Positions 1,088 through 56,160 of a stretch of DNA of 64,000 nt are shown here, piece after piece. Position numbers and translations under genes: made by a program. Source of the DNA: Pseudomonadota bacterium (GTDB taxonomy: Bacteria > Pseudomonadota > Gammaproteobacteria > Steroidobacterales > Steroidobacteraceae); NCBI GenBank assembly GCA_018241505.1, contig JAFEDS010000021.1:97472-161471 (forward strand), in the 5' to 3' direction. The notes beneath the pieces were generated by a model. That model did no database searches and was not told the DNA's origin. It worked only from the letters and a program-made list of their open reading frames with translations. How positions within the stretch are numbered: position 1 is the stretch's first letter; each line of letters opens with the position of its first letter.

Positions 1088-1104
1088 CAAAGATACGGAT
1101 GGCC
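1088..1104. promoter_or_regulatory. Weak candidate regulatory site between divergent CBS genes
   Basis: On the minus strand the text reads TCCGTATCTTTGC, a partial match to the recurring word TAsGTAyTTTCCG. On the plus strand the overlapping GATACGGATGGCC resembles a second recurring word (see findings). It lies about 60 bases from both start codons, the same distance as the better sites. No clear -35/-10 pair was identified. Confidence 0.3.
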
Positions 1105-1161
1105 AAGTTGCTCGGGCGGTGACTGAATGTGAGACCGGAATACCGGACGGAGGTCTATCAA

Positions 1162-1599
1162 ATGAACGTGGGGCAAATCAGTGGCGGTCGGCTCGTGACA
1201 GTCTCACAGCACTCTATGGTGTCGGAGGTGGCTCGAATGATGGCCGCGAATCACGTAGGAGCTGTGATTGTCACGGAGAATGCGGATGATGAATCGCCGA
1301 TGGTCGGGCTCATTACCGATCGAGATATTGTGAATGCCCAGTTGGATCAGACCAAAGATCTCAACAGCCTCAGTGCGGAAGCGGTCATGACGCGCAAGGT
1401 ACTGACTCTGAGTCCGGGAGACTCCCTCGATGGCGCGATCGCACACATGCGTGCCAGAAATGTGCGCAGAGCACCGATCGTTAGCGCGGGGGGTGTTCCG
1501 GTTGGTATGGTGTCCACCGACGATCTCATTGCTCAAATGTCGTTCAAACTTTGCAGCATTGCCGGCATCGTGGCCAAGCAGTCCCAAAGGGAGCGCTGA
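1162..1599 (+). CDS. CBS-domain-pair protein, first gene of the rbbA operon
   Basis: About 145 residues with two CBS motifs (VGLITDRDIVNA and GMVSTDDLIAQ). I chose the ATG at 1162 over an in-frame GTG at 1129 because GGAGG sits about nine bases before it and the protein then begins MNVGQIS, like other CBS genes here. The stop is two bases before the GTG of the HlyD-type gene, so it is probably co-transcribed with the exporter. A CBS protein leading an RbbA-type exporter operon suggests energy-status input, but this is inference. Confidence 0.88.
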   Translation: MNVGQISGGRLVTVSQHSMVSEVARMMAANHVGAVIVTENADDESPMVGLITDRDIVNAQLDQTKDLNSLSAEAVMTRKVLTLSPGDSLDGAIAHMRARNVRRAPIVSAGGVPVGMVSTDDLIAQMSFKLCSIAGIVAKQSQRER

Positions 1600-1601
1600 G
1601 T

Positions 1602-2738
1602 GTGTCCGTTGCTCTCCAGCAGCCGCCCGTAAACCTGCCATCGGCGCCTGCGTTGCAGCCGCAGCCGGCCTTGCAACCTGCCCCCGACCTGCATCCGGTG
1701 CCGGTTGTCTCGACGCTGCCAGCCATTCCAGGCGACGCTTCAAACCGGCGGCGCTGGCGCGGTCCGGTGCGGTGGTTATTGTTTGTCCTGCTGATTGCTG
1801 GCGGCGCCGCTCTCTATTTCTGGAAACACACCGGCGGCACCGTACTTCCCGCGGGCATCGTGTCGTCCAACGGGCGGCTGGAGGCCACTGAGATCGACAT
1901 CGCGACGAAGCTCGCCGGCCGCATCAGCGAAGTGTTGGTTCAGGAGGGCGACTTCGTTGAGCGGGGGCAGATTGTTGCGCGCATGGATACAAATGTGCTG
2001 CAGGCGCAGTTCCGTGAGGCCCAGGCGGATGCCAATCGCGCCAAGATGGCCCTCGCCACGGCGAATGCGGTTGTCGACCAACGGCGCAATGAGCTGACGC
2101 TTGCACAGAGCATCCTACGGCGTTCCAAGCAACTGGTGGACGGCCATTTCATCAGCGTGGAGAAGCTCGACAGCGACCAGGCGCAGTTCAATGTAGCCAG
2201 TGCGACGCTGACTGCCGCGGTTTCCCAGGTCTCCATCGCCAAGGCGGCGCTGCAGGCCGCTGGAGCGGCCATCGAGCGGATCCAGGCCGATATTGACGAC
2301 AGCGTACTGCGCGCGCCGACTGCAGGTCGCGCTCAATATCGCCTCGCGCAGCCGGGAGAAGTCCTCCCCGCGGGCGGCAAAGTCATCGGAATGTTGGATC
2401 TCGCCGACGTCTACATGACCTTGTTCCTGCCGGAAGATTCCGCCGGACGGCTGGCAATCGGCTCTGAAGCGCGGCTCGTATTTGATGCCGCCCCACAGTA
2501 CGTGGTTCCTGCCCGCATCACTTTCGTTGCGACCGAAGCGCAATTCACACCCAAGACGGTGGAGACGGCCACCGAGCGGCAGAAGCTCGTCTTCAGGATA
2601 AAGGCGCAGTTGGATCCCGATCTGCTGCGCAAGCATTGGACGCAGGTGAAGGCGGGTGTTCCTGGCACCGGCTATGTCAGGGTCAATCCTGCTTCGGTCT
2701 GGCCCCAGACGCTGGCAATTCGCCTCCCGGCGCCATGA
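1602..2738 (+). CDS. yhiI: HlyD-family periplasmic adaptor of the RbbA/YhhJ exporter
   Basis: 378 residues from a GTG at 1602. A proline- and alanine-rich cytoplasmic lead (about 1-50) is followed by one membrane segment (about 56-74), a biotinyl-lipoyl-like half motif (GRLEATEIDIATKLAGRI), a long alanine/glutamine-rich coiled-coil hairpin, and a second lipoyl half with beta-barrel (APTAGRAQYRLAQPGEVLP). This is the membrane fusion architecture that links an inner-membrane pump to an outer-membrane channel. Gene order yhiI-rbbA-yhhJ matches the E. coli locus. Its end overlaps the rbbA start by four bases, so translation is coupled. No TolC-like gene lies nearby. The lead before the membrane segment is unusually long. 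Confidence 0.88.
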   Translation: MSVALQQPPVNLPSAPALQPQPALQPAPDLHPVPVVSTLPAIPGDASNRRRWRGPVRWLLFVLLIAGGAALYFWKHTGGTVLPAGIVSSNGRLEATEIDIATKLAGRISEVLVQEGDFVERGQIVARMDTNVLQAQFREAQADANRAKMALATANAVVDQRRNELTLAQSILRRSKQLVDGHFISVEKLDSDQAQFNVASATLTAAVSQVSIAKAALQAAGAAIERIQADIDDSVLRAPTAGRAQYRLAQPGEVLPAGGKVIGMLDLADVYMTLFLPEDSAGRLAIGSEARLVFDAAPQYVVPARITFVATEAQFTPKTVETATERQKLVFRIKAQLDPDLLRKHWTQVKAGVPGTGYVRVNPASVWPQTLAIRLPAP

Positions 2739-5434: not shown

Positions 5435-5436
5435 GT

Positions 5437-6570
5437 GTGGACCGGCTGAGCAGCATCTATCGTCTCGCGTTGAAGGAGCTGGCGAGCCTGTCACGCGATG
5501 TTGCACTCGTGGGCCTAATCATCTACGCATTCACGTACGCCGTGTACGGTCCTGCCAAAGGTGCCCGTATGGAGCTGCGTGATGCTTCCGTCGCAATTGT
5601 CGACGAAGACCATTCCGTGCTGTCGGCCCGTTTAGGGGATGCACTGCTTCCGCCTCTGTTTCAGCCTCCGCGCTATCTCGATCGCGCGCAGATCGACGCA
5701 GCCATGGATGCAGGCAAATACACGTTCATTGTGGACATTCCCCCGCGCTTCCAAGCCGATGTTCAGGCAGGGCGGCAACCCGCGATGCAAGTCAACATCG
5801 ACGCCACTGCGATGAGCCAGGCGGGCCGGGGCGCTGGCTACATAGCAAACATATTCGCCGGGGAGATTGCTAGATTTGTCGGTGCCGCCACCGTACAAAC
5901 CCAGCCGGTGCGCCTGATCGTGCGCTCAAAATTCAACGCGAACCTGCTCGATACCTGGTTCCTGGGAGTCTCCCAGATCATCAGCAATATAACGCTCCTG
6001 GCGGTCATTCTTTCCGGAGCTGCGGTGGTGCGGGAGCGGGAACACGGCACGATCGAGCATCTGCTGGTCCTGCCCCTGCGACCCAGCGATGTCATGCTTG
6101 CGAAGATCGTGGCCAACGGCTTCACCATTGTGGTTGTGGCGACCCTCTCGCTGTGGATCATTGTGCAGGGCCTGTTACAGGTGCCGATTGCAGGCTCCGT
6201 TGCGCTGTTCATTCTGGATGCCGTCGTGTATCTGTTTTCGGTGACCTCACTGGGAATTCTGCTGGCCACCCTCGCGCGCTCCATGCCGCAATTCGGCCTG
6301 TTGGCATTTCTGGTTTTCCTGGTGCTCAACATGCTGTCCGGAGGGGCCACACCGCTCGACAGCATGCCGGACTGGCTGCAATCGATCATACAATTGTCAC
6401 CCGCCGTGCACTTCGTCAATACCGCGCTTGCGATCCTCTATCGTGGCGCGGATTTGCGCGCTGCGGGAGGTGAAATGCTGGTGACGGCGGGTATCGGCGT
6501 GCTGTTCTTTGCGGTTGCCCTGAGTCGCTTCCGGAAGATGATTGCCATTGTGCAATTGCGAGGTGTCTGA
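5437..6570 (+). CDS. yhhJ: ABC-2 type permease (YhhJ)
   Basis: 377 residues. I chose the GTG at 5437, seven bases after AGGAGG, over the GTG at 5431, which is too close to the ribosome site. One N-terminal membrane helix (RDVALVGLIIYAFTYAVYG), a large periplasmic domain (about 40-170), then five hydrophobic helices with the conserved VVREREHGTIEHLLVLPL segment of ABC-2 permeases. It should pair with the permease half of RbbA as a heterodimeric channel. It overlaps the next gene by one base (TGATG), so all five genes from 1162 to 8267 look like one transcript. Confidence 0.9.
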   Translation: MDRLSSIYRLALKELASLSRDVALVGLIIYAFTYAVYGPAKGARMELRDASVAIVDEDHSVLSARLGDALLPPLFQPPRYLDRAQIDAAMDAGKYTFIVDIPPRFQADVQAGRQPAMQVNIDATAMSQAGRGAGYIANIFAGEIARFVGAATVQTQPVRLIVRSKFNANLLDTWFLGVSQIISNITLLAVILSGAAVVREREHGTIEHLLVLPLRPSDVMLAKIVANGFTIVVVATLSLWIIVQGLLQVPIAGSVALFILDAVVYLFSVTSLGILLATLARSMPQFGLLAFLVFLVLNMLSGGATPLDSMPDWLQSIIQLSPAVHFVNTALAILYRGADLRAAGGEMLVTAGIGVLFFAVALSRFRKMIAIVQLRGV

Positions 6571-9405: not shown

Positions 9406-10020
9406 TCAATGTGCCGTGAGAGAACGGGTTATTCTCACGAGGTGTGCAAGCGAGGGCGCGTGCATCTTCTCCATGAGCCGGGCACGATGGATCTCCACGG
9501 TTCGCTGGCTGATGCTGAGGTCGAAGGCAACTACTTTGTTGGAGGAGCCGCGCGCTACGTGCTCCAGAACCTCCCGCTCGCGGGGTGTCAACGAGTCATA
9601 CCTCGCCCGGATGGACTGCACTTGCGTGAGTTGACTTTGCGCTTCGGCGTTTTGCCGCAGAGCCCGTTGTACCCGCTCGAGGAGCTCCTGATCGTGGAAG
9701 GGCTTTTCAACGAAGTCGAAGGCGCCGTGTTGCATGGCCTCGACCGCCATGGAGACATCTCCATGACCGGTGATGAAGATGACCGGCAGGATCGAGCCTC
9801 GGGTCGTCAGCTCGCGCTGCATTGCCGGTCCGCTCATCCCGGGCATGCGGACATCCAGCAGGACGCAGCCGGTTGCCTCATCCGCGTGATGATCGAGAAA
9901 AGTCTGTGCTGAGTCGCAGGTGATCACCTGCAGGCCCACCGACTTCAACAGAAGCTGCAGTGAATTGCGTACGGCGCTGTCGTCATCGACCACGTAAACG
10001 CAAGCGGTTGGCATCTTCAT
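9406..10020 (-). CDS. fixJ: FixJ-type response regulator
   Basis: 204 residues. Receiver domain (about 5-120) with acidic pocket VDDD, phospho-acceptor D56 in LLDVRMPGMSG, T84 in FITGHGD and K106 in VEKPF. A LuxR/FixJ helix-turn-helix follows (SLTPREREVLEHVARG, then ISQRTVEIHRARLMEKMHA). The receiver and helix-turn-helix give the usual FixJ length. The likely partner is the FixL-like kinase at 18407-19555. Ribosome site GGGAG precedes the ATG. Two candidate self-binding sites lie 55-100 bases upstream, suggesting autoregulation. It could be read from its own promoter or through from pfkA, 110 bases upstream. Confidence 0.92.
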   Translation of the reverse strand: MKMPTACVYVVDDDSAVRNSLQLLLKSVGLQVITCDSAQTFLDHHADEATGCVLLDVRMPGMSGPAMQRELTTRGSILPVIFITGHGDVSMAVEAMQHGAFDFVEKPFHDQELLERVQRALRQNAEAQSQLTQVQSIRARYDSLTPREREVLEHVARGSSNKVVAFDLSISQRTVEIHRARLMEKMHAPSLAHLVRITRSLTAH

Positions 10021-10072: not shown

Positions 10073-10117
10073 GGGAAATACGTAGAGTTCGCAAAGCTAC
10101 CTAGGTACTTTCCGAAG
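10073..10117. promoter_or_regulatory. Two inverted FixJ-like sites upstream of fixJ
   Basis: The minus strand over 10073-10086 reads TCTACGTATTTCCC. The plus strand over 10102-10114 reads TAGGTACTTTCCG, inside the perfect palindrome TACCTAGGTA (10098-10107). The two copies point away from each other with centres about 25 bases apart. They sit in the only gap (10021-10130) between pfkA and fixJ, 55-100 bases before the fixJ start. Confidence 0.6.
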
Positions 10118-13579: not shown

Positions 13580-14467
13580 TCAGGGAATCATCAGGACGTC
13601 CACGGGGCAGTGGTAGGCAATCTGCGTCCCGATGCATCCCATCAGGGGATGGTCTGGGGCAAGCGGCGTTTGCTCGTGCCTGCCAATCACGACGACCTGG
13701 GCCGCATGTCGGGCGACTTCAGCCAATACGGTCGGCAAGGGTGTCCCGCGCACCAGGTGCATATGGATCGTAGCGGCCGTTTCGTCGCCCGACCAAGGCG
13801 GATTTGCGGCATATTTCGCCGCCATCTCTGCATCTGCGTAGCACGTCGCGATAGCTTCAGGACTGACGCCACTCAGTTTGAGACGTTCGAGATAGGGGAC
13901 TTCGTAGGTCCGTACTATGTGGCAGTCTCCGCTGGAGACGATCGCAGTGGCCCAGTGAACGATCCTCCGCGCCTGTTCCGATGATGGACCAATTGCAGCG
14001 ACGGATGTGTTGTACGGCTTTGCATCCTCACGGCGCACGAGGAGCAGAGGCACTTCGAGCCTCGAGACGAGTTTCATGGTCGTCGCGCCCAATGCCATTT
14101 GCGCGTTGCCTGCGGTATGCTCGCCATGAGCACCCAGGACCAACATTCCGGGCTGATACTGCGTGACGCAGCGGGCAATGGCTTGGCTCGCCTTACCCTG
14201 ATGCAGTTCCGCAACGACATGGACCGAGAACTCGGCTGCGAGTCGGTCCTTCGCCCGGTTCAGGAGCATCCCGGCATTCTTCGATATGTCGGTATAGTGT
14301 TGCTGCGCCATGGGAGCGCTGTTGGAGAACAGAGTCCAGTCCGGAGTCGCATGAATGATGCGCAACTCCGCTCCCTGCTGGGCCGCTATCCGGCCCGCCC
14401 GGGCCAGGGCGGCATTACCCGCGGCTGAGAAGTCGGTGGCGGCGAGAATCCTGGAAAGTGTGCGCAT
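13580..14467 (-). CDS. Tandem universal stress protein
   Basis: About 295 residues from the ATG at 14467 (MRTLSRILAATDFSAAG). An in-frame GTG at 14512 would add 15 residues, but the shorter start begins the Usp fold directly. The first domain ends with VLGAHGEHTAGNAQMALGATT, a near-canonical G-x2-G-x9-G nucleotide loop. The second has VIGRHEQTPLAPDHPLMG, which departs from it. Apparent first gene of the minus-strand run to fixJ. Confidence 0.9.
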   Translation of the reverse strand: MRTLSRILAATDFSAAGNAALARAGRIAAQQGAELRIIHATPDWTLFSNSAPMAQQHYTDISKNAGMLLNRAKDRLAAEFSVHVVAELHQGKASQAIARCVTQYQPGMLVLGAHGEHTAGNAQMALGATTMKLVSRLEVPLLLVRREDAKPYNTSVAAIGPSSEQARRIVHWATAIVSSGDCHIVRTYEVPYLERLKLSGVSPEAIATCYADAEMAAKYAANPPWSGDETAATIHMHLVRGTPLPTVLAEVARHAAQVVVIGRHEQTPLAPDHPLMGCIGTQIAYHCPVDVLMIP

Positions 14468-14558: not shown

Positions 14559-14580
14559 TAGGTACAAATGCGGATTCGCG
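14559..14580 (+). promoter_or_regulatory. FixJ-like site in a divergent intergenic region
   Basis: The plus strand starts TAGGTACAAATGCGG and runs on as ATTCGCG. It shares this layout almost base for base with 34478-34500 (TACGTACAACTGCGG then ATTTGCGG), with four or so mismatches. It is 53-74 bases before the GTG of the oxidoreductase and about 90 before the Usp start on the other strand, so it could serve both. Confidence 0.55.
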
Positions 14581-14632: not shown

Positions 14633-15220
14633 GTGTCAAAGCGAATTCTGATTATCGATGGCCATCCCGACTCCCGTGCGGAGCGGTATGTGCACGCGTT
14701 GTCAAAGGCGTATTTCGATGGAGCGCGCCTGGGCGGGCACGAGGTTCGCAGTATCATCGTCAGTGAACTGCAGTTTCCCCTGCTGCGTACGAGCGAGGAT
14801 TTCCGGGACGGCGAAGCACCGGAGTCGATTCGTCGCTGTCAGGAGCTCATTGCCTGGGCCAACCACATCGTCATCTTGTTTCCGCTGTGGCTGGGCTCGA
14901 TGCCGGCGTTGCTCAAGGCATTTCTGGAACAGGCGCTTCGGCCGGGTTTCGCATTTGACGAGTCGGCACACGATGGATTTCCGAAGAAGCTGCTGAGCGG
15001 CAGAAGCGCGAGGATCATTGTCACTATGGGCATGCCTGCGCTGTTCTACCGTTGGTATTTTCGTGCTCATAGTCTCAGGAGTCTGCAGCGAAATGTGTTG
15101 CGTTTCTGTGGCTTTCGGCCGGTGAACGCCTGTGTGGTCGGGATGGTTGAAAGCATGACCAGTGCGCAGCGGGGCGAGTGGCTGGCCAAGGTTCAGCAGC
15201 TCGGCCTGCGGGGCGAATGA
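14633..15220 (+). CDS. Flavodoxin-fold NAD(P)H oxidoreductase (quinone reductase type)
   Basis: 195 residues from a GTG at 14633 (VSKRILIIDGHPDS). The HPDS phosphate loop, the FPLWLGSMPALLKAFLEQ segment and the MGMPALFYRWYF segment are typical of the flavodoxin_2 family (NQO/MdaB/YwrO), which uses FMN or FAD to reduce quinones by two electrons. It is followed 17 bases later by the dihaem cytochrome c and then the P-type ATPase, apparently one transcript. Physiological substrate unknown; possibly quinone or nitro-compound reduction, like the nitroreductases of the DosR regulon. Confidence 0.85.
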   Translation: MSKRILIIDGHPDSRAERYVHALSKAYFDGARLGGHEVRSIIVSELQFPLLRTSEDFRDGEAPESIRRCQELIAWANHIVILFPLWLGSMPALLKAFLEQALRPGFAFDESAHDGFPKKLLSGRSARIIVTMGMPALFYRWYFRAHSLRSLQRNVLRFCGFRPVNACVVGMVESMTSAQRGEWLAKVQQLGLRGE

Positions 15221-18406: not shown

Positions 18407-19555
18407 TCAGGCCGAGACCGGTTCGGCTCGCATCGCGGGCAGTTGCACCTTGAAACAGGCACCCCGCGGCTCATTCGGACTATATTCGAGCCGCCCATCA
18501 TGGGCAGTCACAATCGTGCGGCTGATGGGCAGGCCGAGCCCGGTCCCTGTGGGCTTGGTCGAGCAGAAGGGGTCGAACATCCGATTCACAATGGCCTCCT
18601 GCACACCGCCCCCGTTGTCGCACACGGAGATCTCAACATCGCCCGCACCGGTTCTGCGCGTTTGCACAACCAGCTCGCCCGTTTCGACCTGCGCCAGGGC
18701 CAGGGAGTCGAGCGCATTGTGGACGAGATTCATCACCACCTGCTGGATCTGCGAGCTGTCAAGAACCACCTGCGGCAGATTCGGCTGCAGATCGCGGCGA
18801 TAGTCAACGCCATGCGCCTTGGCGTCGGACTCGATCAGCAGGTTCAGCTCGGCTATGACCTGGTTCACGTCGGAGGGGACACGCGTGGGGCGCTCGCTTT
18901 TGGCGAGGCCTCTCAGCTTGCGGATGATGTTGCCCGCACGTACCGCCTGTTCGGCGATCTGCTTCAATGCACCTTGCACTTCCTCGACATCCGGATCGGC
19001 TCCGCCCAACAACCGGTCGCAGGCATGAGCGTAGGTCGCTATCGCGGCGAGAGGTTGGTTCAGCTCGTGAGCGATGCCGGAGGCCATTTCGCCGACTGTG
19101 GCAAGGCGTGCGACATGCATCAGCCGGTCCTGAAGACGATGGGCCTCGGCTTCCGATTCATGCTGTGCCGAGTTATCACGGACGAAACCAACGAAGCGCG
19201 GCGGATTGGATTCGGGAATCAGTCCGACAGCGAGGGACGCTGGAAAAAGCGTACCGTTCTTGCGCCTCACCTCTATTTCATGTCCGCGTCCGATGATGCG
19301 TGGAATACAGGACGCCAGGTATTGAGCCAAATGGCTGCCGTGCGACTGTCGATCTTCGTCGTTCATCAGGATGTCGACTGTGCATCCGAGGACTTCGTGC
19401 GCCTCATAGCCGAAGATTCTTTCGGCTGCGCGACTGAAGGTCAGGATGGTCCCGATGTGATCGATGACCACGATTGCGTCGACCGCGGCATCAAGCAGCG
19501 CCTGCAGTTCGAATGCGGTATCGGTAGCGGTCGCAAGAGGCGGGGCGGCGTTCAT
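18407..19555 (-). CDS. fixL: FixL-like haem-PAS oxygen-sensing histidine kinase
   Basis: 382 residues from the ATG at 19555; a longer frame exists, but the PAS domain starts near residue 15 of this version. PAS (15-130): AERIFGYEAHEVLGCTV, then DRQSHGSHLAQY, where H72 aligns with the haem-ligand histidine of rhizobial FixL (DRSRHDSYISRY in Bradyrhizobium, from memory). The distal arginine of FixL (GIGR) appears as H92 in IIGRGHEIEV. Kinase core: IAHELNQPLA with phospho-acceptor H163, then N, G1 and G2 boxes (NLVHNALDSL, VCDNGGGV, GTGLGLPIS). No membrane segment, so a soluble sensor. It faces the P-type ATPase tail to tail. Confidence 0.85.
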   Translation of the reverse strand: MNAAPPLATATDTAFELQALLDAAVDAIVVIDHIGTILTFSRAAERIFGYEAHEVLGCTVDILMNDEDRQSHGSHLAQYLASCIPRIIGRGHEIEVRRKNGTLFPASLAVGLIPESNPPRFVGFVRDNSAQHESEAEAHRLQDRLMHVARLATVGEMASGIAHELNQPLAAIATYAHACDRLLGGADPDVEEVQGALKQIAEQAVRAGNIIRKLRGLAKSERPTRVPSDVNQVIAELNLLIESDAKAHGVDYRRDLQPNLPQVVLDSSQIQQVVMNLVHNALDSLALAQVETGELVVQTRRTGAGDVEISVCDNGGGVQEAIVNRMFDPFCSTKPTGTGLGLPISRTIVTAHDGRLEYSPNEPRGACFKVQLPAMRAEPVSA

Positions 19556-19595
19556 GATTCGGCACCATGTTGTTCCTGTGCGCCGCGCCAATCTG

Positions 19596-19608
19596 TACGT
19601 ATCTTCCG
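19596..19608 (+). promoter_or_regulatory. FixJ-like site upstream of fixL
   Basis: Plus strand reads TACGTATCTTCCG, one of the best matches to the recurring word. It lies in the 70-base gap (19556-19625) between fixL and the CHAD gene, with its nearest edge 41 bases before the fixL start, so fixL may be controlled by its own partner. Confidence 0.6.
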
Positions 19609-19625
19609 AACGGACAGCCTCGATC

Positions 19626-21227: not shown

Positions 21228-21263
21228 ATACGTACTAACCACCGTAGGCACGATTACGGATGC
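21228..21263. promoter_or_regulatory. Two candidate regulatory words between divergent genes
   Basis: Minus strand over 21220-21238 contains TTAGTACGTATGCGGAAA, with TACGTA at 21229-21234. Plus strand over 21251-21263 reads GATTACGGATGCC, a match to the second recurring word, 58 bases before the lipoprotein-like start. The first word lies about 50 bases before the phosphoribosyltransferase start. No clear -10/-35 boxes were found. Confidence 0.4.
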
Positions 21264-22980: not shown

Positions 22981-23074
22981 GAAATCCTCCGCGCTCTGCC
23001 TGCTGATTGGTTCTGCTGGTGAACACTCTCCATTGCGGCGATCCCGTCGCCAAGTCGTACTCTCATCGACCGGC

Positions 23075-23140
23075 GTAAGTAGTTTCACGGAGTCATCCTG
23101 AACGATGACTGACCCGAATTGGGCGATAAGTATTACTCCG
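23075..23140 (+). promoter_or_regulatory. Two FixJ-like sites in a 276-base non-coding gap
   Basis: Plus strand 23075-23090 reads GTAAGTAGTTTCACGG, close to the rhizobial TAAGTA-TTTCCC form, and 23127-23140 reads TAAGTATTACTCCG, with one extra base. Centres are 50 bases apart. They lie between a 57-residue ORF on the minus strand and a 30-residue ORF on the plus strand, the only candidates they could control. Nothing else was recognised in 22981-23256. Confidence 0.45.
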
Positions 23141-23256
23141 AATCGCCGTGGGCAGCGTTTCGGCGCAATTTCGAAACTCATCGCACAATTGGAGCCGGCC
23201 ATGTCGTCCAGGTTGATTGTGATCGGCGCCGAGCGCCGCAGGCGGAGGAGCCTGAA

Positions 23257-23349
23257 ATGAAAGCACACGCGCGCCACGTCACGCTTGTCATTGTGCTCGG
23301 TGTCATCATGCTCATCGTAGCGGCCATTGCCGGAGGACTCGGATTATGA
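23257..23349 (+). CDS. Small 30-residue membrane peptide
   Basis: Starts MKAHARHVTLVIVLGV from an ATG eight bases after GGAGGAG, then a single hydrophobic helix (VTLVIVLGVIMLIVAAIAGG) and ends GLGL. This is the shape of small stress-induced inner-membrane peptides. No family identified. A real gene is likely, but too short for certainty. Confidence 0.5.
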   Translation: MKAHARHVTLVIVLGVIMLIVAAIAGGLGL

Positions 23350-23438
23350 GACGCGGGTCGTCGTGGCAGATCAGGGTGAGGCCCGCGGCGCGGTTCAGTC
23401 ACCGCTGCAGCGGGGAATCTCGCCGTTGGCCGTACGAA

Positions 23439-23888
23439 TCAGCTTTTTGCACCGACGGCGCGCACCAGCAGAAGTGCGACCGGCGTGTGCCGCACGAGGT
23501 ATTCCGCATCGCTGCCGAGGACGATCCGGCGCAAGCCGCGACGACCGTGGGTACCACAAACGATGATGTCGGCGGCCCAGTCGTTCGCCGCTTTGACGAT
23601 GAGCTCTCCTGCCGCGGTGCCGAATGCTTCGATCAACTGCGTGTCGGCCGCCACCCCGGCCCGCTGCACCGTTTCCAGTGCGCTCGCCAGAACCGACTTG
23701 CCTGAGATACACAGGCCTTCGATGACATTTTCGGTTACAACGGCGTAGGGCGACACCATCACAAACTCGTCCACAACATGCACGATCCGGATACGGGCAC
23801 CCTGGTCGACGGCTAGTCTGATCGCCTCCTGCAAACCTCGCTCAGCCGTTTCGCTGCCATCGACGGGAACCAGAACTTTCTTGTACAT
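23439..23888 (-). CDS. Single-domain universal stress protein
   Basis: 149 residues, one Usp domain: KVLVPVDGSETAERGLQEAIRLA opens the fold and ICGTHGRRGLRRIVLGSDAEYLVR-like text (VCGTHGRRGLRRIVLGS) is the canonical G-x2-G-x9-G-S ATP loop. The only single-domain Usp in the window with a full loop. It begins two bases after the tandem Usp (23891) ends, so translated from the same transcript. Confidence 0.92.
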   Translation of the reverse strand: MYKKVLVPVDGSETAERGLQEAIRLAVDQGARIRIVHVVDEFVMVSPYAVVTENVIEGLCISGKSVLASALETVQRAGVAADTQLIEAFGTAAGELIVKAANDWAADIIVCGTHGRRGLRRIVLGSDAEYLVRHTPVALLLVRAVGAKS

Positions 23889-23890
23889 GG

Positions 23891-24877: not shown

Positions 24878-24936
24878 GAGCCTCTCCTGATCTGCTTCGG
24901 CTCATGATGCTCCTGACGAGCCGCGCCGCGCAGTCA

Positions 24937-24957
24937 GGAAAACCACGTATGTACCTA
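24937..24957 (-). promoter_or_regulatory. FixJ-like site upstream of the Usp pair
   Basis: Minus strand reads TAGGTACATACGTGG followed by TTTTCC. Combines the TAGGTACA opening of the 14559 site with the TACGT and TTTTCC words of others. 60-80 bases before the Usp start in gene orientation. It overlaps the 3' end of the beta-CASP gene by three bases. Confidence 0.45.
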
Positions 24958-31412: not shown

Positions 31413-31457
31413 CGGCTATACGGATTTGCACGGATCGGTAGTTCTGCGTATTTCCAG
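31413..31457. promoter_or_regulatory. Candidate sites upstream of groEL
   Basis: Plus strand 31445-31457 reads TGCGTATTTCCAG, a good match to the recurring word. Plus strand 31417-31429 reads TATACGGATTTGC, the second recurring word. They are about 60-100 bases upstream of the groEL start. Bases 31359-31562 hold no other feature. Confidence 0.5.
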
Positions 31458-33161: not shown

Positions 33162-33602
33162 TTACTGCACGCTGATCTGCTTCGGTTTCGACTTCTGCGG
33201 TTCCGTCTTCGGAATGTGCACGGTCAGAATGCCGTCCTTGCTTTCACAGCGGATCGCATCCGAATTGACATTCTCGGGAAGGCTGAAGCTGCGTTCGAAT
33301 GAGCCGTAAAAGCTCTCAACCCGATGATACTTCTCGTTCTTGTCTTCCTTCTGCTGCTTGCGTTCGCCTTTGATGGTGATCAATCCACCATCGACAGTCA
33401 CATTGACGTCTTCCTTCTTGACCGCAGGCAGCGAGGCGCGTATGACGAATTCGTGGTCGGTTTCGCTGATGTCGGCGCTCGGCGCCCATTCAGTCTTGCC
33501 ATTGTCGGAAGTAAACTGTGGCCACCGGGCGAAGCTGGCGGGCATCATGCGATTGAAAAAGGTGTCCATATCGGCAAACGGATCCCAACGTACGAGGCTC
33601 AT
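33162..33602 (-). CDS. Hsp20-family small heat shock protein
   Basis: 146 residues from the ATG at 33602, after AAGGAGAC. N-terminal WDPFADMDTFFNRM, alpha-crystallin domain FVIRASLPAVKKEDVNVTVDGG to GSFERSFSLPENVN, and the C-terminal IPKTEPQKSK, with an I-x-K variant of the I-x-I anchor. An ATP-independent chaperone. HspX is the counterpart in the DosR regulon. Confidence 0.92.
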   Translation of the reverse strand: MSLVRWDPFADMDTFFNRMMPASFARWPQFTSDNGKTEWAPSADISETDHEFVIRASLPAVKKEDVNVTVDGGLITIKGERKQQKEDKNEKYHRVESFYGSFERSFSLPENVNSDAIRCESKDGILTVHIPKTEPQKSKPKQISVQ

Positions 33603-33682
33603 GGTTGTCTCCTTCGATGTGTGTTGTCTGTCACACGGCAATGTTGAGTCAGTGGGCCATGGACGGCGATTCGGAGATGTAC

Positions 33683-34450
33683 TTACGCGCTCCCCGAGCG
33701 GGGATTGCGTGAGTGCGCAAAGTCCGGACTGGCAGTCGACAATTCCCGCTGCAGCCCGGTCTGCAGGCTGTGGGCGGCCGAGTCCACATCATCGACAAAC
33801 TCGAACAGTCGCAGGTCCTGCGCGTCGATCACGCCGTGGCGCAACAGAGCATCGAAGTTGATGATTTCCTTCCAGTACGCGGATCCATACAAAAGCACCG
33901 GAATCCGCCGCGCCAGCTTCTGAGTCTGCGCGAGCGCCAGAACCTCGAGAATCTCATCCAATGTGCCGAACCCGCCGGGAAAAGCGATGAGCGCACGCGC
34001 CAGATGTGCGAACCACAGCTTGCGCATGAAGAAGTAGTGGAACTCAAATGACAGCCCACGCGTGATATACGGATTGGGGCGCTGCTCATGCGGCAGGCCG
34101 ATGTTGAGTCCAACCGACTTGCCAGCGGCGTCCGCCGCGCCGCGATTGGCGGCTTCCATGATGCCGCCGCCACCGCCGGTACAGACGACATACCGATGCG
34201 CGTGTGAGGGGAGGGACTTCGACCAAAGGGTCATCCGTCTGGCGAGCTCGCGGGCGTCCTCGTAGTATCGGCCTAGCGGCGAACCGGGTTGCACCCGCGC
34301 CGATCCGAAAAAGACAATCGTGTCGTGAATTCCAGCCCTGCGAAAGCGCTCCAGCGGCTCCAGGTATTCCGCCAGGATGCGCACAGGCCGCGCCTCATCG
34401 CCTTCCAGAAACTCGGTGTTCTCATATGCCGGTCCACTCATGCTACGCAT
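33683..34450 (-). CDS. LOG-family (TIGR00730) nucleotide-5'-monophosphate phosphoribohydrolase
   Basis: About 255 residues; I take the ATG at 34450 (34441 is possible). Motifs VFFGSARVQPG, CTGGGGGIMEAANRGA, and PGGFGTLDEILEVLALAQTQ with the PGGxGT signature of lysine decarboxylase-like LOG proteins, which release nucleobases from nucleotides. Divergent from the CBS gene at 34560; the FixJ-like site at 34478 lies between them. Confidence 0.85.
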   Translation of the reverse strand: MRSMSGPAYENTEFLEGDEARPVRILAEYLEPLERFRRAGIHDTIVFFGSARVQPGSPLGRYYEDARELARRMTLWSKSLPSHAHRYVVCTGGGGGIMEAANRGAADAAGKSVGLNIGLPHEQRPNPYITRGLSFEFHYFFMRKLWFAHLARALIAFPGGFGTLDEILEVLALAQTQKLARRIPVLLYGSAYWKEIINFDALLRHGVIDAQDLRLFEFVDDVDSAAHSLQTGLQRELSTASPDFAHSRNPRSGSA

Positions 34451-34477: not shown

Positions 34478-34500
34478 TACGTACAACTGCGGATTTGCGG
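34478..34500 (+). promoter_or_regulatory. FixJ-like site between divergent LOG and CBS genes
   Basis: Plus strand opens TACGTACAACTGCGG and continues ATTTGCGG. Nearly the same arrangement as the 14559 site. 60-82 bases before the CBS GTG and 28-50 before the LOG gene. Confidence 0.55.
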
Positions 34501-37523: not shown

Positions 37524-37648
37524 GTACCTTCTCCGTGAAATGGTGCAGTCACTGTAAACCGGCGGGCGCGGGGGACAATACGAACAACTACATATGCCGG
37601 ACTCGGTCGGCGACGGGCATCATCTGTTCCCATATCAAGGAGTTCCGA

Positions 37649-38066: not shown

Positions 38067-38606
38067 GTGAGCCGCAAAATCATAAACCGCCGTGCTTTCT
38101 TGCAGAATGCGACATTGGCCTCGCTCTCCTTGAGAGGCATCGCCGCACGTGCTGAAGGGTCGCAGACACGTTCGCTGTCATTCGTCCATACGCACACCGG
38201 CGAACGGGTTTCTGAGACATACTTTGACAACAACGGATATGTGACCGAGTCGCTCGGTCGAATCAATCGGTTGCTGCGTGACTTCCGTACGGACGATATT
38301 CACGCCATCGACGTGCGTGTGCTGGACATCCTCCACGATCTGCAGACCCTGACCGGCCACGAGGCGCCTTACGAAATCATTTCAGGTTACCGCTCGCCAA
38401 AGACCAATGCCGCTTTGCGGCGAAGCTCGGCAGGCGTAGCAGAGCACAGCTTCCACATGCAAGGGCGGGCAATTGATGTGCGTCTGTCCGGCTACGCGAC
38501 CAGCAGGTTGCACGAGCTTGCGCTGACACTGCGGCGCGGTGGTGTCGGATTCTATCCGCGGTCGGACTTCGTCCACCTCGATAGCGGACCCGTGCGGTTC
38601 TGGTAG
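38067..38606 (+). CDS. MepK-like DUF882 murein endopeptidase (YcbK type)
   Basis: 179 residues, GTG start. Twin-arginine-type signal (NRRAFLQNATLASLSL). Peptidase M15 metal motifs: EIISGYRSPKTNAALRR, AEHSFHMQGRAIDVRLSG and the final DFVHLDSGPVRFW. In E. coli MepK (ycbK) acts on 3-3 cross-links, the same bonds L,D-transpeptidases form, and an LdtD-like gene lies at 11 kb. The 3' end holds the start of a FixJ-like site. Confidence 0.88.
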   Translation: MSRKIINRRAFLQNATLASLSLRGIAARAEGSQTRSLSFVHTHTGERVSETYFDNNGYVTESLGRINRLLRDFRTDDIHAIDVRVLDILHDLQTLTGHEAPYEIISGYRSPKTNAALRRSSAGVAEHSFHMQGRAIDVRLSGYATSRLHELALTLRRGGVGFYPRSDFVHLDSGPVRFW

Positions 38607-38616
38607 GTATTTTCCG
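38604..38616 (+). promoter_or_regulatory. FixJ-like site upstream of a Usp
   Basis: Plus strand reads TAGGTATTTTCCG, the best single match to the consensus. It overlaps the stop codon of the MepK-like gene and lies 60 bases before the Usp ATG at 38676. Confidence 0.6.
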
Positions 38617-38675
38617 CAATCGGCTACGCATTCGCGCGCATTTCGTCCGTTTGACAGTCGGCGCACGCTGTCGGC

Positions 38676-39620
38676 ATGGACGAGCTGAAATCAATTCTCG
38701 CAGTCGCCAGTCGGTCTGCGACGGACGGCGCCTTGTTGGAAAAGGCAGTGCGGCTGGCTGTCGGTTGTGGGGCACACATCCATCTTTTCTATAGCGACGC
38801 CCGATCGGGAGGCGCACTAGGTCAGGAAAAAGAGCCGGCAAAGGCACAGCAGGCGTGGGACGAGCGCGTCAGCGATGATCGCGAATATCTCGATGCGCTG
38901 ATTGCCCGCTTGCGGGTACCGGGAGTCAGGATCACATCACATGCCACCTGCGACCAACCCCTCAATGAGGCAATCCTGCGAGAGGTTGCCCGGATGCAGC
39001 CAGACCTGGTGATGAAGTCCCCGGCGGGTTCACATCCGTTACGTTTGTTCACATTGGATTTGAACGACTGGCGCCTGGCGCGCAAGTGCCCTTCGGCCCT
39101 GATGCTCGTCCATGAGGCCCCTTGGCCCGTGGCGCCGCGATTCGGCGCGCTGGTCAATGTCTCGGAGCGAGCCGTCGCGCGATTGCCCGCAGAAGTGTTG
39201 CATGCCTGCGAATACCTGTCATTGGGAAGCGGCGCCGCGGTGGACGCCGTTTACTGTGAGTCGGGAGACGATCCGGATGAGGTGGCGGATCGAGCGGCGT
39301 CGTTCGACCGGCTGACACGGGAGTTTCATATTCCGGCCGGGCACGTTTTCACTCTGCGCGGCGACCCGGATTTACAACTCCCGGAGTTTGTTTCAAAAAA
39401 GCGCTACGACGTGTTGGTATTGGGTGCTCCCACTCATCGGCACGGGCTGGGCGCGCTCGCGGGCGGTCTCAGCAGCAAGCTGATTGATGCGGCCGACTCC
39501 GATCTGTTGCTGGTGCGACTGCCGGTCAGATCAACCGGCGAGCAGCTCGCGCATCATTGCGAGCAGCTCGTCGGCCTTGATGGGTTTGCTGGCGACGCGG
39601 ACGAGCTCGTCCACGGCTAG
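38676..39620 (+). CDS. Tandem universal stress protein
   Basis: 314 residues (MDELKSILAVASRSATDG). Second domain VLGAPTHRHGLGALAGGLSSKLID resembles the partial Usp at the left edge. No good ribosome site; a FixJ-like site lies 60 bases upstream. It converges with the hybrid kinase, overlapping by 90 bases, so its last 30 residues (after LLLVRLPVRSTG) are in antisense to the kinase end. Confidence 0.88.
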   Translation: MDELKSILAVASRSATDGALLEKAVRLAVGCGAHIHLFYSDARSGGALGQEKEPAKAQQAWDERVSDDREYLDALIARLRVPGVRITSHATCDQPLNEAILREVARMQPDLVMKSPAGSHPLRLFTLDLNDWRLARKCPSALMLVHEAPWPVAPRFGALVNVSERAVARLPAEVLHACEYLSLGSGAAVDAVYCESGDDPDEVADRAASFDRLTREFHIPAGHVFTLRGDPDLQLPEFVSKKRYDVLVLGAPTHRHGLGALAGGLSSKLIDAADSDLLLVRLPVRSTGEQLAHHCEQLVGLDGFAGDADELVHG

Positions 39621-41096
39621 CTCGCGGATGGCTGACGACGTGTCGCCCGTAATCAGCACGGCTTTCAAGGGCCTGCCCAGGTTTTCGCGCAACGAGGCGA
39701 CCAATTGGGTGCCGGTGTCCGAGCCGCCGAGATGATAGTCCGTCACCAGCAGATCGATGTCGCTATTCTCGCGCGCGACCCGCTGTGCTTCCCCGAGTGA
39801 GCCGACTGCACTGACCCGAAAGCCTTCCACTCGGAACAACATCCGCGTCGCGTCGCGGACACTGGTGTCATCTTCAACGAGCAGGACATGGACCTTTCCG
39901 GTCTGACGCGCGGATGTGGGCGCGCTTTGTTTGGCGCTGGCTGACACAGCGGTCGGCTGCGCCATGCTTCCCGGAAGCACCAGTGTGAAGGCCGATCCCT
40001 TGCCGGGTTCCGAGCGAACATCGAAACCGAGATTGAGCAGCTTGACCAGCCGCTGCACGATGCTTAGACCCAAACCGTACCCATCCCGTGTGCTGTTGGT
40101 GGGGACGCCGACCTGATAGAACTCATCGCAAATGTAAGGAAGCTGGTCCGCGGGAATACCGATACCGGTATCCGTGACTTCAATCCGTACTTTTGAGTCG
40201 CCATCCGACATGCAATGGAGAATGACCCGCCCCGAGCGCGTATATTTGATGGCGTTGGAGAGCAGATTGCGCAGGATCTGCTCGACGAGCGACGGATCGC
40301 TGTAGATGAGTTGGGCGCTGCTTTGTATCTGCAGCTCGAGACCTTTGCGTGCGGCAAGACTGGCAAATTCGTTACGTAACTCGTCGAAAATGGCCGCCAC
40401 CTTGAAGTCGGTGAGTTCCGGCTTGATGGCGCCGGACTCGAGCTTGCTGATATCCAACAACGCATTCAGCAGGCGCGACATGGCGCCGATCGCCAGCTCC
40501 TGTTGGGTCACGGCGGCGACGGCGTCTGGGTCGTGGACCAGCCGCAGCAGTGTGCCGTTCAGCAGGGCCAGGGTTTGCAGGGGTTGACGTAGATCGTGGC
40601 TCGCGGTGGCCAGGAACCGACTCTTGGCCAGGTTGGCGCGATCGGCAACGTCGCGAGCTTCGTCCGCCACTTTCCGCGCCTGCTCGGCCGCTTCACGGGC
40701 AACGATCAGCTCCGCCTTGACACGATTACGCTCGGTGATATCGCGAATCGCCGCGGCTACCAGCATCTGGTCCCCGTCTTGCACGGGGCTCAAGCTCACC
40801 TCGACAGGAAATTCAGTCCCGTCCCGCCGCAGCGCATACAGGTCGAGATTGGCGCCCATGGGCCGCAGGCGCATGCTCTGGGCATACCCCTCGCGATGGC
40901 CTACATGCGGCTTTCGGAAACGCTCCGGCAGAAGCATCTCCACCTTCTGGCCAACAATGGCGTCATGCTCATAACCGAACAGTACCGAGAGCTGCCGATT
41001 CGAAAACCGGATGACGCCGAAGGAATCGATGATGACCATCGCATCAGGGGCGGCATCCAGGGCGCTGCGCGCGAGTTCGGACGGAGTGGAACGCAT
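39531..41096 (-). CDS. Hybrid histidine kinase, PAS-HisKA-HATPase-REC
   Basis: 521 residues. PAS domain (FGVIRFSNRQLSVLFGYEHDA), linker coiled coil with repeated AREAAEQARKVADEARD text, HisKA with SHDLRQPLQTLALL, ATPase (DTGIGIPADQL; DGYGLGLSIVQ) and a C-terminal receiver (LLVEDDTSVRDATRML, D in LLVTDYHLGG, K in ASKPIKA). No membrane helix. The SHDLRQPL box is that of NahK/ErcS-type hybrids. It lacks a cognate regulator next door and could feed FixJ or another. A weak FixJ-like word lies 40-60 bases upstream. Confidence 0.9.
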   Translation of the reverse strand: MRSTPSELARSALDAAPDAMVIIDSFGVIRFSNRQLSVLFGYEHDAIVGQKVEMLLPERFRKPHVGHREGYAQSMRLRPMGANLDLYALRRDGTEFPVEVSLSPVQDGDQMLVAAAIRDITERNRVKAELIVAREAAEQARKVADEARDVADRANLAKSRFLATASHDLRQPLQTLALLNGTLLRLVHDPDAVAAVTQQELAIGAMSRLLNALLDISKLESGAIKPELTDFKVAAIFDELRNEFASLAARKGLELQIQSSAQLIYSDPSLVEQILRNLLSNAIKYTRSGRVILHCMSDGDSKVRIEVTDTGIGIPADQLPYICDEFYQVGVPTNSTRDGYGLGLSIVQRLVKLLNLGFDVRSEPGKGSAFTLVLPGSMAQPTAVSASAKQSAPTSARQTGKVHVLLVEDDTSVRDATRMLFRVEGFRVSAVGSLGEAQRVARENSDIDLLVTDYHLGGSDTGTQLVASLRENLGRPLKAVLITGDTSSAIRELAVDELVRVASKPIKADELLAMMRELLAG

Positions 41097-41238: not shown

Positions 41239-42219
41239 CTATATCAAGGGAGCGGATGCCAGGACCGAGATGCGGGGACCCCGTCGGCGCCGTTGTATCG
41301 CGAGCGCAATTCGGTCCGGTTTGACGATCAGGAGATCGCATGGCAGCGAGTCCAACAGTGACTCGGCCGTGTTGCCAATGAAGAGCCGTTTCAGACCTGA
41401 ACGCGAAAGTGCGCCCATGACCACAATCGCGCTGTTGAGCTTGCGCGCCGTTTCCTCGACGGCATTGATCGGGTGCCGTGCCAACAGGTGGCGGCGTGCC
41501 TTCGGGATCTCATAGGCGCGCACCGTGCGCTCGAATCCGCGCCGCGCCTTCGCTGCTATGTCGGCCGCGAGTTTCTGAACGGCACTTTCCGTCAACAGAT
41601 TGGAAGGAAACGGAGTCGGGAGTGGAATGTAGGCATGGACTGCGTGGAGACTGCCCTGCAATGCCTGGCTGAAAAGGGCCGCCTGGCCCAGGATCCGCGC
41701 GTCCAGGTCGGTCGGTTTTGCATTGGCGTGTGACGGATCGACGGCAGCCAGCACGGCGGGCTTTTGATACATCCCGGTGGTCTTGACCAGCAGCACGGGC
41801 ACCGGGCTGATTCTCAGCAACTCCCAATCCGTCAATTGCAGCAGGCCCGCGGCGAAATGGCGGCCTGCATGCCGTTCCGCAACGATCAAATCGGCTTTGA
41901 TCTCATTGGCACGGCGTACGACGGCTTCGAATACAGGGTGGTCCCATTCCACCGACACGCCCACTTCGAGGCCTTCCGCCCGAAGCCTGCCGGCCAGCCG
42001 CTGCAATTTGTCCCGGTGCTTCTGTGACGTGACCCGTTCGACATCTTCGAGCGCACCGTTCGTTGAATAGGCGTCCACATACAGTGTTGTCGATATGCAA
42101 TGGAACAGCTCCAGGCGGGCACCCCAGGGCTTCGCAAGTTGAGCGGCCTTCACCACAGCCGGCAGCGAACGGGCGGACGGATCCTTGATCGCGACCAGAA
42201 TCCGCTTAATTTTTTGCAT
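41239..42219 (-). CDS. Tandem universal stress protein (UspE type)
   Basis: 326 residues from the ATG at 42219 (MQKIKRILVAIKDPSARS); an upstream ATG at 42228 is possible. Second domain VMGALSRSGLKRLFIGNTAESLL. Highly similar to 23891 and 56224 by eye. Divergent from the MgtA-like ATPase. Confidence 0.92.
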   Translation of the reverse strand: MQKIKRILVAIKDPSARSLPAVVKAAQLAKPWGARLELFHCISTTLYVDAYSTNGALEDVERVTSQKHRDKLQRLAGRLRAEGLEVGVSVEWDHPVFEAVVRRANEIKADLIVAERHAGRHFAAGLLQLTDWELLRISPVPVLLVKTTGMYQKPAVLAAVDPSHANAKPTDLDARILGQAALFSQALQGSLHAVHAYIPLPTPFPSNLLTESAVQKLAADIAAKARRGFERTVRAYEIPKARRHLLARHPINAVEETARKLNSAIVVMGALSRSGLKRLFIGNTAESLLDSLPCDLLIVKPDRIALAIQRRRRGPRISVLASAPLI

Positions 42220-42272
42220 ACGAAGCATTCCGAAGCGTTGTCCCGATCCTATGGTGACGTACCCGGCGGGCA

Positions 42273-42294
42273 GAGGACATACGCAATTACCCGG
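42273..42294. promoter_or_regulatory. Candidate site between divergent Usp and MgtA genes
   Basis: Minus strand over 42273-42285 reads TGCGTATGTCCTC, like the groEL site TGCGTATTTCCAG; plus strand over 42280-42294 reads TACGCAATTACCCGG. It is 54-75 bases before the Usp start and 37-58 before the ATPase GTG. Confidence 0.4.
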
Positions 42295-42330
42295 ATAGGA
42301 CCGTTGCCATACGCTCCGCCAGACTGGGGC

Positions 42331-48142: not shown

Positions 48143-48163
48143 TCTACCTACCTGAGTCCAACT

Positions 48164-49930: not shown

Positions 49931-49982
49931 GGCAATTCCTCGTTCGCTGTGAACGGGATATTCGCTGAAACCTTCCGGGTTA

Positions 49983-49999: not shown

Positions 50000-50005
50000 G
50001 AGACC

Positions 50006-54750: not shown

Positions 54751-54756
54751 CGCTTC

Positions 54757-55515: not shown

Positions 55516-55585
55516 CGGTTGCTCCAAGCTCTAGCGTTTGCGCTCCCGGATTCTTTTATGCCCGTATGGACGTGGACGGCCAATA

Positions 55586-55599
55586 CGGGAAACTACTCA
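55586..55599 (-). promoter_or_regulatory. FixJ-like site upstream of the glycan operon
   Basis: Minus strand reads TGAGTAGTTTCCCG, the closest match to the rhizobial-type word. 70-84 bases before the WecG start in gene orientation. It overlaps the stop codon of the BON gene. The rest of 55516-55596 holds no other recognised feature. Confidence 0.55.
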
Positions 55600-56079
55600 C
55601 GTTGACGCCACGATGTCGTTCTTGACATCAGTGCCCCCTGAGGTCGCGACCGAGATGTCGTTGATGATGCTTTTGACGCCGTCCAGACTTTTCAAAACAG
55701 ACTCGGCTTGCTCGCGTTGAAAGTAAAGTGGGGCGCTCCCCTCCAGCGTCAGATGCCCTTGATGAACGATCACCTTCAGGCTGTCTCGTAATCCGGGCAG
55801 AATGCGCGCAAGAGTGGCTACGGCCTCACGCGCAATCTCCGGGTCGCTCGGCGCGTTATCCATCGAGTCACGCACTTGGATTTCGTTGGCGATTCCCCGT
55901 ACTCCCGGGGTTCGCTTGACAGCATCCTCCACGGCGAGCTTGACACGATAAGCGCTTGCGAACCCCGTGAGAGTAACCACGCCGCCATGAACCTTCAGCG
56001 CGATGTCGGTTGTGTCGATATCGGGCGTCCAACGCAACTCCGATAAGATGTCCTGCTCGAGCTCGGCATCGGTCTTCAT
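55597..56079 (-). CDS. Two-BON-domain protein
   Basis: 160 residues. First BON: DILSELRWTPDIDTTDIALKVHGGVVTLTGFAS; second: GHLTLEGSAPLYFQREQAESVLKS. Same leader pattern as the three-BON protein (DVEAELRWSPDVDETDIA), so a paralogue lacking the third repeat. No signal peptide seen. Divergent from the fusion Usp. Confidence 0.88.
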   Translation of the reverse strand: MKTDAELEQDILSELRWTPDIDTTDIALKVHGGVVTLTGFASAYRVKLAVEDAVKRTPGVRGIANEIQVRDSMDNAPSDPEIAREAVATLARILPGLRDSLKVIVHQGHLTLEGSAPLYFQREQAESVLKSLDGVKSIINDISVATSGGTDVKNDIVAST

Positions 56080-56147
56080 GGTTACGCCCGCGCCCCCCGG
56101 CTGATGATGCAGACGATTCTCGTACCGGCGCAGAGGACACAGAATTC

Positions 56148-56160
56148 GCAGAAATACGTA
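56148..56160 (-). promoter_or_regulatory. FixJ-like site between BON and fusion Usp
   Basis: Minus strand reads TACGTATTTCTGC, plus strand GCAGAAATACGTA. 63 bases before the Usp ATG and 69 bases before the BON start, so it could serve both. Confidence 0.55.

Follow-up and report, generated by a model that had tools for sequence, protein, structure and literature searches.

Which protein reads the word that recurs in the promoter gaps of a Usp-rich gene island, and is this word the whole of the signal? The question is raised by a stretch of 64,000 nucleotides from a bacterium of the family Steroidobacteraceae (Gammaproteobacteria), here called the window, that covers positions 97472-161471 of contig C13 (161471 bases) and ends where the contig ends. 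An inspection of the letters, referred to below as the sequence-only reading, had proposed that TAsGTAyTTTCCG is shared by many promoter gaps and that FixJ is the prime candidate for its binding. It was established that the underlying motif is a 16-18 bp palindrome, AT[AC]CG[TC]A-N4-T[AG]CG[GT]AT, of which the proposed word is mostly a partial view. The palindrome is probably the site of the island's own FixJ, which would control the island promoters under a FixL-like kinase.

All eleven single words of the sequence-only reading are present, each at its position and on its strand, and the TAsGTACAAnTGCGG pair was confirmed at 14559 and 34478. The words are real, lie in promoter gaps and stand above chance: TASGTAYTTTCCG at up to 3 mismatches occurs 45 times, as compared with 19.97 ± 4.01 after shuffling (0/100 shuffles reach 45), and at 0-2 mismatches it is found seven times in the 26 gaps, which total 6.0 kb or about 9% of the window, and once in 57.8 kb of coding sequence, while exactly 3 mismatches give 8 matches in gaps and 29 in coding sequence. 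The unsupervised count of dyads in the window gaps, which placed TACnTAT first and GCAATT second, also had GTAnTTT and GTAnnTTC among its top entries. As a description of the shared motif the word holds only in part. An overlap with a palindromic site of at least 12 bits exists for nine of the 13 words (by 2 bases only at 10102) but is lacking for those at 10084, 19596, 38604 and 46135. Of these four, 19596 and 38604 represent another arrangement, termed type ii, and 46135 fits both forms poorly. Further palindromic sites were located at 21245, 24934, 31419, 33670, 37579, 42219 and 1084, the last one close to 1088, which had been given only as the start of a range.

On the window gaps, expectation maximization (EM) seeded with the word shifted to the palindrome, while unseeded EM on the same gaps returned GCAATTGC and an 18-mer and did not find the FixJ palindrome. 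Palindromes of the GCAATTGC type are themselves in excess in the window gaps and genes (63 vs 42 at up to one mismatch, e.g., at 6552 and 49792) and rank high in the unsupervised counts. Circularity was avoided, since a second matrix was built from relatives only, i.e., from 40 loci that surround Usp homologues in further genomes of the family and were picked by protein similarity alone. These loci contain 86 promoter gaps before genes homologous to those of the window and 217 before other genes. The dyad GTA-n7-GGA, second in the unsupervised count, is present in 19/86 gaps of the former group vs 2/217 of the latter (Fisher 1e-9), and EM on the 86 gaps seeded with this dyad yielded AT[AC]CG[TC]A-nWWn-T[AG]CG[GT]AT, the exact symmetry of which is partly due to scanning of both strands. 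When applied to the window at a threshold of at least 12 bits, the relatives-only matrix detects 16 gap sites, as compared with 2 within 57.8 kb of coding DNA, whereas 100 column-permuted matrices give a mean of 0.44 and a maximum of 2 gap sites. The 16 sites occupy 13 of the 26 gaps, namely all seven divergent gaps, six of the 14 with a one-way promoter and none of the five promoterless ones. On the scale of the whole assembly no excess was seen: the genome scan that was to bear out the word found 17 matches of TANGTANTTNCC vs 29 for the reversed control (five of the 17 within about 50 kb of contig C13, four of these in the window, and three beside a second fixLJ pair), and TASGTANNNNTGCGGA at two mismatches occurs 594 times vs 1009 in the control. 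The exact TASGTANNNNTGCGGA is present three times in the assembly, twice in the window; with up to one mismatch it is present 33 times, four of them in the window.

The position of the sites is equally regular, gene starts having been refined by rule and by eye. The distance of 40-90 bp before the start, proposed for most words, describes the palindromic sites well (44-95 bp), except those at 23127 (146 bp) and 42219 (105 bp). A TATAAT-like hexamer stands at a fixed 22-23 bp beyond the site in 37 promoters of relatives (0/500 shuffles), and the same spacing was obtained in the window both for 18 and for all 23 site-to-gene directions (0/500 shuffles each); the five directions absent from the smaller count include the poor -10 matches of 23076 and 23127. 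Since the -10 element lies at 22-23 bp, the centre of the site is near -42, beside the -35 position. In four of the seven divergent gaps (34478, 37579, 42280 and 56145) both sides score at least 5 for a -10 element at 22-24 bp, the background for such a score being 0.18 per side, and because of these paired elements a single palindrome may serve two divergent promoters.

Is the palindrome conserved beyond the assembly? With a matrix made from the window only, 77 distinct Usp promoters were scanned, taken from 51 other genomes that are part of the 111 with a Usp match among 150 (own genome included). Of these promoters 32 have a site of at least 12 bits, whereas 60 permuted matrices gave a mean of 0.8 and a maximum of 4; the median distance of the sites to the start is 66 bp. 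At up to 2 mismatches TASGTANNNNTGCGGA has 20 matches in 31 Usp promoters vs 0.72 for permuted patterns, where the window's own promoter is included and a palindrome may count on both strands, and at up to one mismatch in the 40 loci it is found 12 times in 64 kb of gaps vs 5 times in 600 kb of coding sequence. Sites of at least 11 bits in relatives precede genes for B12-dependent ribonucleotide reductase (141 bp), zinc alcohol dehydrogenase, cytochrome c and ccoN (194 bp), as well as FAD-linked oxidases, Hsp20, BON and hybrid kinases; others stand before genes without an evident link and some inside coding sequence. Several of these further targets fit a low-oxygen regulon. In one relative (L307, G022:C35, position 1196) a palindromic site lies between the B12-dependent ribonucleotide reductase gene and a CBS gene.

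The candidate reader is encoded within the island. This protein has a receiver domain and a GerE/LuxR helix-turn-helix and is similar to FixJ over the full length, and at the columns of StyR Lys175 and His179 (contact residues from PMC5874301) it has Glu and Ala, as FixJ 5xso has. The FixJ site type TAAGTA-TTTCCC, which the sequence-only reading had named, is indeed in print, with TAAGTAATTTCCCTTA as the fixK site of S. meliloti (PMC4999443). Used as an outside query, this S. meliloti site has 8 gap matches of at least 11/16 in the window (1.34/kb) vs 7 coding ones (0.12/kb), and permuted patterns give a mean of 1.18 gap matches, with 2/300 reaching 8. It scores 13.1 bits in the relatives-only matrix, a value matched by 1 of 20,000 random 16-mers and 0 of 5,000 letter shuffles, so that in its letters the palindrome resembles the published fixK sites. 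The words obtained for FixJ by systematic evolution of ligands by exponential enrichment (SELEX) are GTAGTTTCCC and GTAMGTAG (PMC4999443). SELEX class I is enriched in the window gaps at a level of at least 8/10 (13 vs 5.1, 1/300), and for the class II words GTACGTAG and GTAAGTAG no clear enrichment was seen there.

The link between site and FixJ was also followed from the FixJ side. At 80 named FixJ loci the two matrices, when averaged, detect 14 sites of at least 13 bits vs 4.0 for permuted matrices. Two of the 14 lie 71 and 46 bp before CRP/FNR genes adjoining fixJ in two alphaproteobacteria, and for both genes the best NCBIfam model is FixK, under the curated cut-off; three precede Usp genes adjoining fixJ (two Woeseiaceae records and another gammaproteobacterium), one precedes ccoN, one a PAS kinase adjoining fixJ, and the other seven are without such a target. 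Within the assembly, sites of at least 12 bits number 18 in the 64 kb window and 6 in 20 kb at a second fixLJ locus on contig C11. Two FixJ paralogues of lower similarity (42 and 45%) have 0 and 1 such sites in the surrounding 12 kb, and seven further loci of 7-12 kb have none. Among genomes, a site of at least 11 bits stands before a Usp gene in 28 of 44 FixJ-bearing genomes vs 1 of 7 lacking FixJ (no match at 1e-50), with p = 0.020 in a statistic that, like the other FixJ-presence statistics, ignores relatedness; this association seems to be support rather than proof. Taken with the S. meliloti site fit, the island's fixJ and FixL-like kinase and the fixK-like promoters beside fixJ, these data support the choice of FixJ as prime candidate, and motif, position, conservation and link to FixJ genes each have direct support. 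The second fixLJ pair (59% each) occupies 2821-4733 of L067 (G000:C11:1-20000), with norB and an Rrf2 gene nearby; a row of three palindromic sites stands there at 1587, 1607 and 1638 (1587-1659). The assembly (G000) has 7.88 Mb, 93.9% completeness and 5.67% contamination, whereas 13 genomes of the same genus have 2.8-4.7 Mb; it may be a mixed bin, and because of this roughly twofold size the two fixLJ loci may not share one source organism.

The second arrangement, type ii, corresponds to TASGTAYTTTCCGCAa, in full at 38604 and in part at 10102 and 19596. Type-ii words also surround the start of the second fixL on contig C11. In seven further genomes of the same genus they stand upstream of fixJ, and six genomes of a different genus have them roughly 81-86 bp ahead of a distinct group of Usp genes. 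The exact 13-mer is present 17 times in the 14 genomes that belong to the genus, vs 2 matches of the reversed control. Among 33 fixJ loci type-ii-like words are upstream in three only, the window's own and two of the same genus (4 matches vs 3.5 shuffled), and no type-ii word at up to 3 mismatches is present in the 31 Usp promoters. By its letters type ii can be read as the same half-sites in direct repeat with 3 bp between them, and it could be a second arrangement read by FixJ.

The sensor proposed to act on FixJ is the kinase gene at 18407-19558. Its PAS domain aligns to FixL 1dp6 (7.5e-25) and keeps the histidine at the haem-ligand column, and the two columns of the regulatory arginines of the FixL haem pocket read Gln and His. 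Since the histidine is kept, oxygen sensing by the predicted FixL-like kinase is likely. An additional candidate sensor is the hybrid kinase at 39531-41096, homologues of which have sites upstream in two relatives (L336 and L342) and recur in many loci of relatives; the C-terminal part resembles most the NahK/ErcS (near-NosP) family, with a score under the family cut-off.

Several observations weigh against this assignment. The arginine columns just described are one of them, and the best NCBIfam model of the kinase, rhizobial FixL, reaches 320.4 of 850 bits and misses its cut-off. For the response regulator the best NCBIfam model is FixJ, at 251.2 bits with a cut-off of 255, and among PDB structures it is as close to 1yio (StyR, 1.2e-51) as to FixJ 5xso (1.3e-51). 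Most of the 80 FixJ loci are without a site, and when they are divided into quarters by falling FixJ similarity the sites number 7, 2, 4 and 1 vs 0.8, 1.3, 0.8 and 1.0 expected from permutation; because the last quarter has no excess, the evidence for the palindrome code does not extend, at group level, to the FixJ proteins most remote from that of the window. Counted per promoter, the association with FixJ presence has p values of 0.03-0.27 depending on the threshold, and 0.054 by a rank test, and one genome (G065) has a site while FixJ was not found there at 1e-50. In the window, palindromic sites of at least 12 bits are absent before glgP, fixL, usp 31563, usp 38676, the histidine kinase-response regulator gene, aph, CopA and ccoP. 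The palindrome does not account for the type-ii words, the exact 13-mer of which shows little excess in the other 136 genomes (33 vs 24 in the control). Finally, a B. dolosa FixLJ strain gave no induction of an S. meliloti fixK promoter reporter, used as a negative control (PMC5234846), and thus site specificity can differ between FixJ proteins; and since unphosphorylated FixJ of R. palustris binds and represses nif genes (PMC13327599), FixJ of the window could be either an activator or a repressor.

If not the island's FixJ, which regulator could read these sites? One may suppose that the sites are real but that they bind a different response regulator of the NarL/FixJ family, or a mixed set of FixJ paralogues, FixJ being only one of several regulators of the island. 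The genome has 99 response-regulator matches at E <= 0.001, the second FixJ (59%) sits at another cluster of sites, and the site-bearing genome without a FixJ match and the equal closeness to 1yio and 5xso would agree with such a view. Against it stand the near absence of sites around the other two paralogues and the recovery by the matrix of fixK-like promoters beside fixJ in two alphaproteobacteria, and we consider this explanation unlikely. Less probable still is reading by a CRP/FNR-family regulator (Anr, FixK), as the relay through FixK suggested in Burkholderia would have it, where a central role of BCAM0049/FixK was put forward (PMC6127331). The 6-N4-6 spacing of the palindrome is like that of an FNR box and the genome has 20 CRP/FNR matches; yet none of the 20 is on contig C13, the half-site TMCGYA differs from TTGAT, and in the window FNR boxes occur at a chance level (20 vs 16.4 at up to 2 mismatches), for which reason FNR/Anr boxes were also rejected as the shared signal. 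A perfect FNR-type box, TTGATGGTGATCAA, was noted at 33370-33383, within the hsp20 coding sequence. That AT-rich words simply collect in AT-richer gaps, as the lack of a genome-wide excess of either word might suggest, is very unlikely because of the column-permuted matrices, the rarity of the dyad in the 217 other gaps and the fixed -10 spacing.

With the island's own FixJ as the preferred reader, the following mechanism can be proposed. The FixL-like haem-PAS kinase would set the phosphorylation of FixJ (9406-10020) according to oxygen, and FixJ would bind the palindrome as a dimer centred near -42 and switch promoters whose -10 element lies 22-23 bp beyond the site, presumably by activation rather than repression. 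Between divergent genes, where the palindrome can face two -10 elements, one dimer could serve both operons. The putative targets are the Usp, CBS, BON, Hsp20, GroEL-like, cytochrome c and cation ATPase genes of the island together with fixJ itself.

How does such a regulon compare with the known ones? The mycobacterial DosR regulon is alike in that a NarL/FixJ-type regulator controls many Usp genes under hypoxia, and unlike in that it belongs to another phylum and has another box. Ten Usp are counted among the 48 genes of that regulon (PMC6127331). The alphaproteobacterial FixLJ systems share the FixJ-type regulator, the haem-PAS kinase and a 16-18 bp imperfect palindrome. Candidate FixJ sites were described there for four genes of the Rhizobiales, while in the Caulobacterales fixK was the only gene that consistently had one (PMC4999443). 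Here, by contrast, a single island has predicted sites in 13 of its gaps, and its contig yielded no CRP/FNR gene. In the Burkholderia cepacia complex FixLJ is likewise oxygen-responsive outside rhizobia, but its action there is on fixK and, whether direct or indirect, on about 11% of B. dolosa genes (PMC5234846). The B. cenocepacia lxa locus comprises six Usp, BON, a heat-shock protein, cytochrome c, phosphofructokinase and a flavin/nitro-reduction protein, but the locus tags of the FixLJ homologues lie elsewhere in that genome and a role of FixK was suggested (PMC6127331). The window resembles this locus in gene content, with a dense cluster of Usp genes (eight above the Pfam cut-off and one below it) accompanied by BON, Hsp20, cytochromes c and phosphofructokinase; five CBS genes, a Cpn60/GroEL-like chaperonin, a phosphoenolpyruvate (PEP)-synthase-like enzyme, cation ATPases and part of a cbb3 oxidase operon are also encoded. 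In contrast to lxa, fixJ and fixL are inside the island, its promoters have FixJ-type sites and FNR boxes are not in excess. The StyR/TodT box ATAAACN4GTTTAT is used by the same regulator family with the same 6-N4-6 geometry, but its half-site sequence is different (PMC5874301), and STY2 at about -40 (PMC2442086) is placed like the sites of the window.

The proposed regulon, in which FixJ would act directly on many promoters of an lxa-like island that shows no excess of FNR boxes, is likely new; published comparative work lists between one and four targets of FixJ. No description of a FixJ palindrome over Usp islands in Gammaproteobacteria was found in the literature listings searched, subscription papers not being covered. 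A palindrome that is present at many promoters and is matched by the fixK site of S. meliloti allows FixJ regulons to be searched for, at any rate where FixJ is closely related to that of the window, and suggests direct control of lxa-like islands without a FixK relay. More tentatively, and with doubt prevailing, direct control of Usp and redox genes could be an old and widespread function of FixLJ in Proteobacteria, of which the cascade of fixK and nitrogen fixation would be a special case, with one palindrome code extending from the fixK of Rhizobiales to gammaproteobacterial islands and with single palindromes driving divergent operons both ways. Lower odds are given to this idea because of the last quarter of FixJ proteins and the B. 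dolosa reporter result.

Table 1. Predicted sites and regulatory genes of the window (bits from the relatives-only matrix unless otherwise indicated).
Feature	Position	Strand	Remarks
Palindromic site between divergent CBS genes	1084..1099		16.0 bits; -10-like scores 6 and 4 on the two sides
fixJ-like response regulator gene, proposed binder	9406..10020	-	Pfam Response_reg and GerE
Palindromic site upstream of fixJ, 67 bp from start	10088..10103		12.9 bits; 2 bases in common with word 10102
Type-ii word TAGGTACTTTCCG(AAG) upstream of fixJ	10102..10117	+	Exact 13-mer
Palindromic site between usp (13580-14467) and flavodoxin-fold reductase (14633-15220) genes	14559..14574		16.0 bits
FixL-like PAS sensor histidine kinase gene	18407..19558	-	Pfam PAS/HisKA/HATPase; start refined by eye
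Type-ii-like word upstream of fixL, 37 bp from refined start	19596..19611	+	1 mismatch to TASGTAYTTTCCG
Palindromic site between phosphoribosyltransferase and DUF4136 genes	21245..21260		15.9 bits
Palindromic site in gap 22981-23438	23076..23091		14.7 bits; poor -10 match, score 2
Palindromic site in gap 22981-23438	23127..23142		15.6 bits; poor -10 match, score 3
Palindromic site upstream of usp genes 23439-24877	24934..24949		14.2 bits
Palindromic site upstream of Cpn60/GroEL-like gene	31419..31434		17.3 bits
Second, abutting palindromic site upstream of Cpn60/GroEL-like gene	31435..31450		19.2 bits
Palindromic site upstream of hsp20	33670..33685		15.6 bits
Palindromic site between LOG-like and CBS genes	34478..34493		18.1 bits; TAAGAT at 23 bp, CATACT at 22 bp
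Palindromic site between CBS and cytochrome c genes	37579..37594		15.5 bits; -10-like scores 7 and 6
Type-ii site TAGGTATTTTCCGCAA upstream of usp 38676-39620	38604..38619	+	Exact; 7.4 bits in the window's palindrome matrix
PAS hybrid histidine kinase-receiver gene (NahK/ErcS-like), candidate extra sensor	39531..41096	-	Own gap without site
Weaker palindromic site between usp and cation ATPase genes	42219..42234		12.5 bits
Palindromic site between usp (41239-42219) and cation P-type ATPase genes	42280..42295		17.3 bits; -10-like scores 5 and 5
Palindromic site upstream of WecG-like gene	55584..55599		13.4 bits; 13/16 to S. meliloti fixK site
Palindromic site between BON and usp genes	56145..56160		18.5 bits; -10-like scores 6 and 6

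The 20 kb to the left of the window hold three palindromic sites of at least 12 bits, all within 5 kb of it, and a type-ii word with one mismatch stands directly before a GGDEF-EAL gene (L068 15648 = G000:C13:93119); because of these sites and this word the island probably starts to the left of the window. As a marker of the island pfkA led nowhere, being present in 12 of 274 genomes including the own one, the others 42-48% identical. Within the window, a segment of 1.1 kb (5435-6569), in which no gene was kept in the annotation, precedes the glycogen-phosphorylase-like gene.

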